From: Nitrosopumilus cobalaminigenes
GTDB lineage: Archaea; Thermoproteota; Nitrososphaeria; Nitrososphaerales; Nitrosopumilaceae
Length of the DNA: 64,000 nucleotides
NCBI RefSeq assembly: GCF_013407145.1
Contig: NZ_CP026993.1
Span: forward strand, 372,001 to 436,000
Direction of reading: 5' to 3'
The notes under the pieces were generated by a model. It did not search any database and was not told the origin of the DNA. It saw only the letters and a program-made list of their open reading frames with translations. Position numbers and translations under genes: made by a program. Of the stretch, positions 2,988 to 8,840 are shown in pieces. Numbering within the stretch: the first letter of the stretch is position 1; each line of letters starts with the position of its first letter.

Positions 2988-3359
2988 ATGCTTTTAGAAT
3001 TATTGTCTGATTTGATAAAAATTGATGATACCTTACTTATCGTAAAAAACAGCGGTGCAATAAGTGAGGTTAGAGGGCCACTTTCTATACGACAAAAAGA
3101 AAAGTGGATTACTATTGGTGAAAATGACGGTCCTGCACATCTGCATGTAAATTCAGAATTGATAAAATCTGCAGAGTTTGTTCAAGAAGAAAAACCTGAA
3201 CGCACAAGTTTCAGTGTTCATTTTTTTGATGAAAGCGGTGAGCGAATCATTGCAGTGTTTTTTACAAAAATGTATGATGATTCTAAACAATTAATTCATG
3301 ATAGAAAAAAAATCTATGACAAACTAAATCAAAAATTTACTTCAAAAATTCAATTTTAA
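2988..3359 (+). CDS. small protein resembling one HemS/ChuX haem-utilisation domain
   Basis: The 123-residue protein has a pattern reminiscent of the HemS/ChuS/ChuX fold: W-x-T-I-G near residue 41, then HLHV near 50, an alternating beta stretch, and FFDESGERIIAVFF near 74-87. HemS repeats show a comparable arrangement of W..V, LHL, and F.DxxGxxIxxFFG. Proteins of this fold bind or degrade haem in bacteria. The resemblance is by eye and distant, so function is not claimed. It follows the 93-residue gene by 26 bp and ends at a hairpin. Confidence 0.45.
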   Translation: MLLELLSDLIKIDDTLLIVKNSGAISEVRGPLSIRQKEKWITIGENDGPAHLHVNSELIKSAEFVQEEKPERTSFSVHFFDESGERIIAVFFTKMYDDSKQLIHDRKKIYDKLNQKFTSKIQF

Positions 3360-6685: not shown

Positions 6686-7637
6686 ACCTGCTGAATTTAA
6701 AACCGATGTTCACAATGACTGGTGTCCTGGATGTGGGGATTTTGGTATCGTAAATGCTATCCAAATGGCACTAGCTGATATGGGTGTACAGCGAGACAAG
6801 ACTGCTATATTTTCAGGAATTGGCTGTTCTGGTAAGACATCTCACTACATCAACACGTATGGAGTTCACACGTTACATGGTAGGGTTTTGACATTTGCAC
6901 AAGGTGCAAAAATTGCAAATCCTGAGATGACCATAGTCGCTGTAGGCGGTGATGGTGATGGTTTGGGTATTGGTGCTGGTCACTTTGTTGCTGCTGGTAG
7001 ACGAAATGTAAACATGACATACATTATTTTTGATAATGGCGTTTATGGATTGACTAAAGGTCAAGCATCTCCAACTCTGAAATTAGGAGAGAAAACAAAA
7101 TCACTTCCATCCCCTAACACAAATTCAAACGTCAATCCAATTGGATTGGCAATTGCTAGTGGATTTACATTTGTTGCACGTGGATACTCTTATGACATAC
7201 GACATCTCAAAGACTTGATAGTTCAAGCTGTTAAACATCCTGGATTGTCTTTCTTAGATGTATTGCAACCATGTCCTACATACAATGATCTAAACACAAG
7301 GGATTGGTATGCAGGAGCTGATTTGATGGATGAAGCACAAAAAAGACATTCAAGAATTTACAAACTAGAGGAGACTGGATATGAACCAACAGTACATTAT
7401 GATTCTGAAATTGAGATAAATGAAAAACTATCTCAGGCATTAATCAAATCTTTAGAATGGGGAAACAAAATACCAATTGGAGTATTTTACAAAAATGAAA
7501 ACACTACTCCTTACACAAAAAGACTGCAAGATAAGATTCCAAATTATTTGGAAAATCCTCCTGCAAAACAAAATGTTTCAAAGAATGGCCATTCTAATAC
7601 TGATATTTCAAAAATTTTAGATTCACTAGAAGTATAG
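6675..7637 (+). CDS. 2-oxoacid:ferredoxin oxidoreductase, beta subunit
   Basis: The 320-residue thiamine-diphosphate subunit has the CPGCGDFG motif near residue 17, GIGCSGK near 46, the diphosphate-binding GGDGDGLGIG near 93, and a later PCPTYND. The Cys residues in these motifs are those expected to hold a [4Fe-4S] cluster. The gene overlaps the end of the alpha-subunit gene by 11 bp and has a good GGAGG ribosome-binding site at 6661-6665, supporting translational coupling. The last 20-30 residues are Asn/Lys-rich and probably disordered. Confidence 0.9.
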   Translation: MALKPAEFKTDVHNDWCPGCGDFGIVNAIQMALADMGVQRDKTAIFSGIGCSGKTSHYINTYGVHTLHGRVLTFAQGAKIANPEMTIVAVGGDGDGLGIGAGHFVAAGRRNVNMTYIIFDNGVYGLTKGQASPTLKLGEKTKSLPSPNTNSNVNPIGLAIASGFTFVARGYSYDIRHLKDLIVQAVKHPGLSFLDVLQPCPTYNDLNTRDWYAGADLMDEAQKRHSRIYKLEETGYEPTVHYDSEIEINEKLSQALIKSLEWGNKIPIGVFYKNENTTPYTKRLQDKIPNYLENPPAKQNVSKNGHSNTDISKILDSLEV

Positions 7638-7674
7638 TTTGTTTTGAATCTAAAATAATTATTATTTTGAAAAA

Positions 7675-7803
7675 TTAATCTGAATATTCTCTTTTTCTTC
7701 TATATGCTCCACATTTAGGACATGGTTTTTTCTTCTCGCCTGTAGGAGTCAACTCTAAGGAAGTTCCACAATCAAGACAAGATTCTGTTACATTCGATGA
7801 CAT
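7675..7803 (-). CDS. 42-residue zinc-ribbon micro-protein (fourth of four)
   Basis: The peptide has CLDCG at residues 9-13 and CPKCG at 28-32, separated by 15 residues, which is a textbook small zinc ribbon, and a basic tail (YRRKRE). Its ATG overlaps the TAA of the upstream micro-ORF by one base (TAATG), so translation is probably coupled. It is the last of four adjoining minus-strand micro-ORFs. Confidence 0.6.
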   Translation of the reverse strand: MSSNVTESCLDCGTSLELTPTGEKKKPCPKCGAYRRKREYSD

Positions 7804-7910
7804 TATTTTTTACACTCTGAGCATCCACAATCAAACATTCCTGCTTTACCCATACACTGATCATGGTGTGAATTATAGCATTTATTACAAATTACCATTT
7901 TAAGATCCAT
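7803..7910 (-). CDS. 35-residue Cys-rich micro-protein (third of four)
   Basis: The peptide contains CNKC (8-11), HH (15-16), a Cys at 19, and CGCSEC (28-33), enough for one or two metal sites. It overlaps the upstream micro-ORF by 11 bp and the downstream one by 1 bp. The regular spacing of ligands and the tight packing argue that it is a real gene despite its size. Confidence 0.5.
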   Translation of the reverse strand: MDLKMVICNKCYNSHHDQCMGKAGMFDCGCSECKK

Positions 7911-8001
7911 TTTGATGAGTTTTTTCATGAGTCAATACTAGGTTAAAAGTATCTGAAAATCCTTCCCACTTGTAATTACATTCTCTACAATTGTATTTCA
8001 T
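7900..8001 (-). CDS. 33-residue zinc-finger-like micro-protein (second of four)
   Basis: The peptide begins MKYNCRECNYKWEGF and ends with HEKTHQNGS. Spacing CxxC-x16-H-x3-H resembles a C2H2 finger with a long central section. It starts one base after the upstream micro-ORF's stop codon and overlaps the next by 11 bp. No family assigned. Confidence 0.5.
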   Translation of the reverse strand: MKYNCRECNYKWEGFSDTFNLVLTHEKTHQNGS

Positions 8002-8002
8002 T

Positions 8003-8116
8003 TTATCTTGTTTTATCCTCTTTTTTCTTTTCGGATTCTTTGAATGCGTTTACATCTTCTGTAGATTCAGTTTTGCAAGAACCGCATTTCAGTTTTTCAA
8101 TTATTTTTTTAAACAT
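8003..8116 (-). CDS. 37-residue micro-protein with CGSC motif (first of four)
   Basis: The peptide begins MFKKIIEKLKCGSCKTE, with a single CxxC pair at residues 11-14 and a very charged tail rich in Lys, Glu and Asp. It is the promoter-proximal member of the four-gene micro-ORF run. One CxxC alone would need a partner or dimer to bind metal. It is divergent from the gene at 8197. Confidence 0.45.
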   Translation of the reverse strand: MFKKIIEKLKCGSCKTESTEDVNAFKESEKKKEDKTR

Positions 8117-8196
8117 ACTATGTCTTGATTCTCGTTAGTATATACTGGCGCTTTATTCCGAATTTTAGCCTAAATACTAGTATAACAGAGGACAGT

Positions 8197-8346
8197 ATGA
8201 ATTGTCATAAAATTAGTGAACCACATGTTTGGAGATACTCTAAACATACCAAAATGCGTAGATGTCTCAAATGCAAATCTAGACTCCAAATGACTGAAAA
8301 AGAATATCATCTCAAATGGGGAATGCATAAAATTACTACAAAATAG
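8197..8346 (+). CDS. 49-residue Cys/His micro-protein
   Basis: From ATG at 8197 the peptide carries NCHK near the start, CLKC (residues 23-26) and an HLKWGMH segment near 38-44. The frame is open further upstream to 8125, but that part looks non-coding and lacks a good start. It is basic overall, so nucleic-acid contact is possible. It is divergent from the micro-ORF run at 7675-8116. Confidence 0.5.
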   Translation: MNCHKISEPHVWRYSKHTKMRRCLKCKSRLQMTEKEYHLKWGMHKITTK

Positions 8347-8399
8347 TATTCAAATGAATTCTGAACGTAGAAGTTATAGGCAAGTTTTAGAATATTATT

Positions 8400-8840
8400 T
8401 TGCATTTGAATATTAATGAGGCAAATAGAATTTTTAGAAAATCTATCATAAAGGGTTTCTTTGAACCCCAGTTGGTAAATTTAGATTTTAAAAAATCATC
8501 TGTTAAACATCCTTCAATTAGTGATGATGGTCTTATGCAGTCTGATTTACTGCATGTATTTTTTGACATAGAGACTGGCTCTGACTATCCTGATGGTGAT
8601 GAGTGGTTTATTGTAGAATTAGTATTTCCTCATGATGTTAAACTTCCAGATTCTTTGAAAGGGACTGATTATTTTACAACCTTGTCAGTTGATGAGGGAA
8701 AAACATACTGGCATCATCGTGAGTTAATTCGCTACAAATATGGAAAGTCTAAAAAATTACTTGATGCATTAGGATTTCTAGAATCAAAATACAAAGAACT
8801 TCATGAATTACTAGAACCTTTACAAAAAGATCTCAAGTAA
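8400..8840 (+). CDS. hypothetical protein, 146 residues
   Basis: I do not recognise this mixed alpha/beta protein. It is acidic in the middle, and the C-terminal 40 residues look like an amphipathic helix (KYKELHELLEPLQKDLK). There is no ATG near the start: TTG at 8400 or TTG at 8406 are the candidates. Its 3' end overlaps the convergent gene at 8833 by 8 bp, a compact arrangement typical of this genome. Confidence 0.6.
   Translation: MHLNINEANRIFRKSIIKGFFEPQLVNLDFKKSSVKHPSISDDGLMQSDLLHVFFDIETGSDYPDGDEWFIVELVFPHDVKLPDSLKGTDYFTTLSVDEGKTYWHHRELIRYKYGKSKKLLDALGFLESKYKELHELLEPLQKDLK

Follow-up and report, generated by a model that had tools for sequence, protein, structure and literature searches.

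The 64-kb stretch of DNA analysed here, called the window in the following, belongs to a genome assembled as a single contig of 1.56 Mb. Within it, an intergenic region separates korB (2-oxoacid:ferredoxin oxidoreductase beta, named from its sequence), which ends at 7637, from ORF F, which starts at 8400 and codes for a hypothetical protein of 146 aa. The small genes A to E and the promoter element found in this region are reported in Table 1. Four ATG-initiated ORFs lie end to end on the minus strand between 7675 and 8116, as the earlier note had described, and each of them, as read, includes at least one CxxC motif (CGSC, CREC and CNKC in A, B and C; CLDC and CPKC in D). A structured RNA was discarded as an explanation of the cluster, since an Rfam search of the whole window returned two tRNAs only.

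Table 1. Features located between korB and ORF F; coordinates are those of the window.
Feature	Coordinates	Strand	Description
Gene A	8003..8116	-	37 aa, MFKKIIEKLKCGSCKTESTEDVNAFKESEKKKEDKTR; homologues found; dN/dS 0.28
Gene B	7900..8001	-	33 aa; predicted single C2H2-like zinc finger (C5, C8, H25, H29); dN/dS 0.20
Gene C	7803..7898	-	31 aa from the conserved start; C-x2-C-x4-H-x2-C-x8-C-x-C; dN/dS 0.057
Gene D	7675..7803	-	42 aa; zinc-ribbon-like, two CxxC; start overlaps the C stop (TAATG); dN/dS 0.097
Cassette promoter core AAAGCGCCAGTATATAC	8138..8154	-	TATA begins with the T at 8144, at a distance of 28 nt from the start codon of A
Gene E	8197..8346	+	49 aa, Cys/His-rich, divergent from A; dN/dS 0.098
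korB-F intergenic region	7638..8399	.	contains A-E; about 713 bp longer than in some 20 relatives, where it is about 50 bp

A chain of at least four linked CxxC micro-ORFs occurs only once in the window. In a random control, for which 60 sequences of 64 kb were generated from an order-2 Markov model, no four-ORF CxxC chain was found, and two-ORF chains appeared at a rate of 0.1 per sequence. The suggestion that such touching micro-genes exceed what chance would produce is borne out by this control and by the preservation of frames and order in relatives.

The reading of gene C was corrected by reference to its homologues. The ORF had been drawn at 7803-7910, corresponding to 35 aa, and an in-frame ATG at 7928 would give 41 aa; both forms were rejected, because in about 60 distinct homologues the protein begins at MVICNKC or equivalent, with ATG, GTG or TTG as the start codon. 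As C starts at 7898, the 11-bp overlap between B and C does not exist. The spacing originally reported (+1, -11 and -1 bp) is thus reproduced for the ORFs as drawn and loses its middle value after correction; similarly, the lengths of 37, 33, 35 and 42 residues hold for A, B and D, while C is reduced to 31 aa. The corrected junctions read TAA-A-ATG for both A/B and B/C, and TAATG for C/D.

All four ORFs have homologues within the genus Nitrosopumilus. Homologues of B and of C were each detected in 51 of 95 genomes, and those of A in 43, the counts for C and A taking in a few weak matches; strong homologues of D were found in 16 of the same 95. The extracted copies maintain the reading frame and the conserved residues, and visible decay is confined to a minority of copies elsewhere. 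Ratios of dN/dS were computed by the Nei-Gojobori method, pooled over pairs less than 30% divergent, which are not independent of each other. All the pooled values, for A to E, are far below 1 (Table 1); for B, the lone comparison of the window with its sister genome G032 gave 0.50, a weaker indication than the pooled value. The conserved Cys/His patterns are C-x2-C-x16-H-x3-H in B, C-x2-C-x4-H-x2-C-x8-C-x-C in C, and two CxxC in D. The expectation of a regular Cys pattern across all four ORFs fails at A, whose CxxC is present in few copies and is not conserved (position C11 is usually F and C14 is variable) and whose signature is instead the segment DVNAFKESEKK; a zinc finger was consequently rejected for this protein.

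Chance ORFs in AT-rich intergenic DNA would also be short, as all of these are, and would find no counterpart among curated families; in fact no Pfam model (for A-D, E and F) or NCBIfam model scored above its cut-off. Such an origin is nevertheless extremely improbable, given that frames, order and promoter are conserved across dozens of genomes at dN/dS values of 0.06-0.28, and that the four-ORF chain is itself unexpected by chance. Judged by their sequences, A, B and C code for proteins and are arranged head to tail, with coupled starts. D, too, is a gene, independent of the cassette formed by A, B and, often, C.

This cassette was encountered at about 40 distinct sites, in the order A-B-C, A-B, A-B-B or A-B-C-B, always on a single strand and with its genes nearly always touching. 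The gap between A and B is -4, 0 or +1 at 33 of 39 junctions, and that between B and C is -1, 0 or +1 at 24 of 25. Persistence of the ORFs and of their overlaps in related genomes, on which the earlier note had made its case depend, was therefore found for A-B(-C), and not for the Cys pair of A. The four ORFs do not travel as one unit: D directly follows C only in the window and in the sister genome G032; in G085 it lies 0.4 kb beyond C, and elsewhere it stands alone. E is a frequent, not constant, neighbour of the cassette. Adjacent to the cassette in G032 (L119, about 3122-3301), and also at L212 and L231, is another microprotein, MAGYMGDKSNMVVHHLEMMSTDCKIHDVEKANMHYFVPDMLDQARKENFVPCKYCNETKT, which has about 60 aa and is absent from the window.

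The korB-F junction of about 20 relatives measures about 50 bp and contains none of A-E; it is longer by about 713 bp in the genome of the window (G000) and by about 1070 bp in G032. The occurrence of short, empty junctions alongside long ones indicates that the cluster was gained or lost at this site. Read by eye, the korB-F junction showed neither a convincing duplication of the target site nor convincing terminal repeats, and no transposase was recognised at the junction or among the neighbours of the cassettes; in this reading, a transposon was not apparent as the means of insertion. Among 300 genomes sampled from the class, C was found in one family only (99 genomes, 11 genera), and the named contigs carrying it are mostly from Nitrosopumilus and Nitrosarchaeum, with a few labelled otherwise. 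A group of Nitrosarchaeum-type contigs (L248, L254, L257-L261, L263, L270, L271) features a single C gene in conserved surroundings, its neighbours being a 356-aa GTPase-like and a 231-aa phosphatase-like protein, both named from sequence. The comparison of genomes shows that the cassette and its promoter form, in Nitrosopumilus, a multi-copy unit which is scattered over the genomes and variable in its presence. No description of it was found in the open-licence literature.

The promoter element was derived by aligning the DNA upstream of 40 cassettes. Its consensus consists of AGGC followed, after about 14 nt, by AATTACGCCGGTATATATC. In 38 of 39 cassettes, the distance between the first T of the TATA sequence and the start codon of A is 28-30 nt, and in the window copy it is 28 nt. 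In archaeal promoters such a spacing between TATA and ATG predicts a leaderless mRNA, which is accordingly predicted for the cassette in the window. A search for the exact pattern WWTWMGYCRGTATATAYC in 95 genomes returned 33 sites, against 0 for a reversed-pattern control. Thirty-two of them are followed, at a distance of 38-173 nt, by a listed cassette gene, and the remaining one precedes a decayed A-B pair. A pattern derived from cassettes matches cassettes by construction, the added information being that it matches almost nothing else. The element in the window has two mismatches to a shortened pattern and is hence not matched by it. The near-exclusive association of the element with the cassette family fits either autoregulation or a dedicated initiation factor.

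Related forms of the promoter (e.g. ATTAAGTCGGTATTTATCA) precede the lone C in several Nitrosarchaeum contigs. At eight loci (L240, L250, L252, L253, L264, L268, L274, L275) C is alone and divergent from a TBP gene, at a distance of about 60 bp, and is mostly preceded by another promoter type (ATTTAAAGAAATTTAAAA). Two decayed A-B cassettes, L315 (G109:C115) and L316 (G108:C27), have retained intact promoters; behind both, an ORF (MSLRCKVCNTSGGIN...GEWECQTCGNILD) is found which resembles a stand-alone TFB-type zinc ribbon.

Clustering of the genes next to cassettes revealed numerous TFB genes and, in smaller number, TBP and Alba genes, the names being assigned from sequence. In nine single-contig genomes, at least 8 of 29 B loci are no more than 1 kb from a TFB gene, when 0.38 would be expected; the observed number is about 20 times the expected one, and none of 20,000 random placements was as extreme. 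A single family, of histidine kinases, was taken as a control, and none of its 86 members had a listed TFB gene within 5 kb. The following orders recur: Alba-B-C-78aa-TFB; a TBP gene divergent from C, with a TFB gene beyond it; A-B-C convergent to TBP-TFB; and A-B followed by TFB. About two thirds of the cassettes are not near a TFB gene, and the one in the window is 228 kb from the nearest, among the TFB genes listed. Since related genomes share loci, the arrangements which count independently towards the linkage number roughly four to five. In the first of the orders, which is operon-like at L214, L217, L218 and L219, the TFB gene is preceded by that of a 78-86-aa protein, for which no credible family match was found.

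The same features could be read in terms of a toxin-antitoxin-like or selfish module, in which A would be an amphipathic toxin-like peptide, and B and/or C zinc-finger antitoxins repressing the shared promoter, so that the spread of the cassette would reflect self-maintenance and not service to the host. Small touching genes under one family-exclusive promoter would fit such a module, as would a patchy multi-copy distribution with empty sites and decayed copies. This reading is considered unlikely, because B-C is found without A in the Alba-B-C-78aa-TFB clusters and A without B in G068 (L114), and because C is strongly constrained (dN/dS 0.057) and persists as a lone gene in the conserved Nitrosarchaeum surroundings; moreover, linkage to TFB genes is not among its predictions.

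Features of the proteins bear on two further explanations. The ligands C5, C8, H25 and H29 of B are invariant in an alignment of 39 sequences, viral ones included (A5). An AlphaFold2 model, with a pLDDT of 84.9, has a beta-beta-alpha arrangement, with strands at 2-4 and 11-13 and a helix at 20-30; the best structural matches are mostly C2H2 fingers, with a TM of about 0.6 and E-values which are not significant for so short a chain. No Pfam family was matched by B up to an E-value of 1, and its inner spacing of x16 departs from the classical one (C-x2-4-C-x12-H-x3-5-H). On the strength of its Cys2His2 residues and of the predicted fold, B is classified as a C2H2-like finger with non-classical spacing.

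The viral sequences in this alignment raise the possibility that the B-like fingers come from tailed viruses, the cassette being either domesticated or directed against viruses. Eight IMG/VR contigs encode B-like proteins of 42-55% identity, some of them together with portal or terminase genes, and the dispersed, patchy distribution would also fit. Yet neither A nor C is carried by any viral contig in IMG/VR, B has no match among 50,697 phage records, and no viral genes were recognised among the chromosomal neighbours examined, all of which makes this origin quite improbable. The proteins from the eight contigs (L277-L284) share the MKY-C-x2-C...HEKTH motif of B, and several have a Cys-rich second half (CSFCGC).

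C has six invariant Cys/His residues, ending in a CxC. Its AlphaFold2 model is of low confidence (pLDDT 68) and gave no structural match, and sequence comparison gave weak matches to PHD fingers (E 0.2-0.9) and to Prok-RING_1 (E 0.04). By its residue pattern, it is assigned as a novel CCHC-CxC microprotein. So dense a set of conserved Cys/His, six of them invariant, may also suggest a role in metal homeostasis or stress, in which C and B would act as buffers or sensors of zinc or copper and control their own promoter by feedback; their proximity to TFB genes would be a by-product of shared variable regions. For some C(P)XCG microproteins of Haloferax, binding of metals other than zinc has been described (PMC11241148), which would be compatible with this role. 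We find it doubtful, as no metal transporter or metallochaperone recurs among the clustered neighbours, where TFB, TBP and Alba do, and as the histidine kinases, another accessory family, lack the linkage to TFB.

The existence of a conserved cassette of microproteins, provided with a promoter of its own, is secure at the level of sequence; its function we infer. The reading that we tentatively prefer, at somewhat less than an even chance, is that the cassette is a self-regulated accessory of TFB/TBP-directed transcription, which modulates initiation. B, as a predicted single C2H2-like finger, would contact nucleic acid; C would be a second small metal-binding protein; and the general transcription machinery would be the target of both, which most likely modulate initiation at promoters that particular TFB/TBP paralogues serve. 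It is also probable that the cassette proteins act on their own promoter, by repressing or tuning it, because the GC-rich element abutting TATA is found, in the genomes searched, at cassettes only. A may be a short adaptor or a leader peptide, and D, a zinc-ribbon-like microprotein, would have joined the operon secondarily. The proposed function is suggested by linkage, by the exclusivity of the promoter and by precedents (PMC2253796, PMC3541406), in organisms which have expanded TFB/TBP sets (PMC7554672, PMC12448741).

In the signature element, GCCGG abuts the TATA box, a position which is the normal place of the factor-B recognition element. A more specific version of the accessory role, by analogy with bacterial anti-sigma and co-sigma factors, would see the cassettes as a microprotein layer, in which each specialises a TFB/TBP pair and the GCCGG element serves as a specialised recognition site for a particular TFB acting jointly with B or C; this is a speculative extension, and an unlikely one at present.

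In the sea, ammonia-oxidising archaea belong to the most abundant cells, and the frequent presence of the cassette beside extra TFB copies may point to a small layer of transcription control, so far undescribed, in the marine ones. With its proteins of 31-37 residues, its near-exclusive promoter and its repeated location beside TFB, TBP and Alba, the cassette is a concrete, testable candidate for telling TFB/TBP paralogues apart. It also exposes a class of genes below the Pfam and NCBIfam cut-offs, as exemplified by the 31-residue C at a dN/dS of about 0.06.

Among known systems, B is similar to the eukaryotic C2H2 finger in its Cys2/His2 ligands and predicted beta-beta-alpha fold, but differs in the inner spacing, which is about x12 in the former and x16 in B, and in lacking a Pfam match. 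AFV1p06, from the virus AFV1, is an archaeal C2H2-type protein which binds zinc and DNA (PMC3541406). By description, it resembles B in being a small archaeal protein with a single finger of this type; its fourth His is missing and it is extended at both the N and the C terminus, whereas B has all four ligands and a 16-residue inner loop. C shares the C-x2-C-x4-H-x2-C spacing of a PHD/RING half site, but PHD and RING domains are cross-braces of two zinc sites with eight ligands, and C has no second CxxC site.

The haloarchaeal zinc-finger microproteins (HVO_2753, HVO_0758, C(P)XCG proteins, Brz) are likewise archaeal, shorter than 70 residues and provided with Cys-based metal motifs; Brz, from Halobacterium, is a small zinc-finger protein which regulates the neighbouring bop gene (PMC2253796). 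Their paired CPXCG motifs are missing in A, B and C. D contains two C(P)XCG-type motifs, CLDCG and CPKCG, within 42 aa, and scored 16 bits against the HVO_2753 model, whose cut-off is 80, so that it is not a member of that family. The haloarchaeal proteins are described, in the accessible text on them, as single genes, in contrast to the multi-copy tandem cassette with a signature promoter reported here.

Lastly, one report on ammonia oxidisers gives 4-11 TFB and 2-5 TBP genes for mesophilic ammonia-oxidising archaea, and proposes this multiplication as a regulatory network (PMC7554672); in another, the dominant TFB is stated to switch in biofilms (PMC12448741). The relevant passages of the two accounts make no mention of linked microproteins. 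The expanded TFB/TBP sets are found in the same kind of genomes as the cassettes, and often at the same loci.
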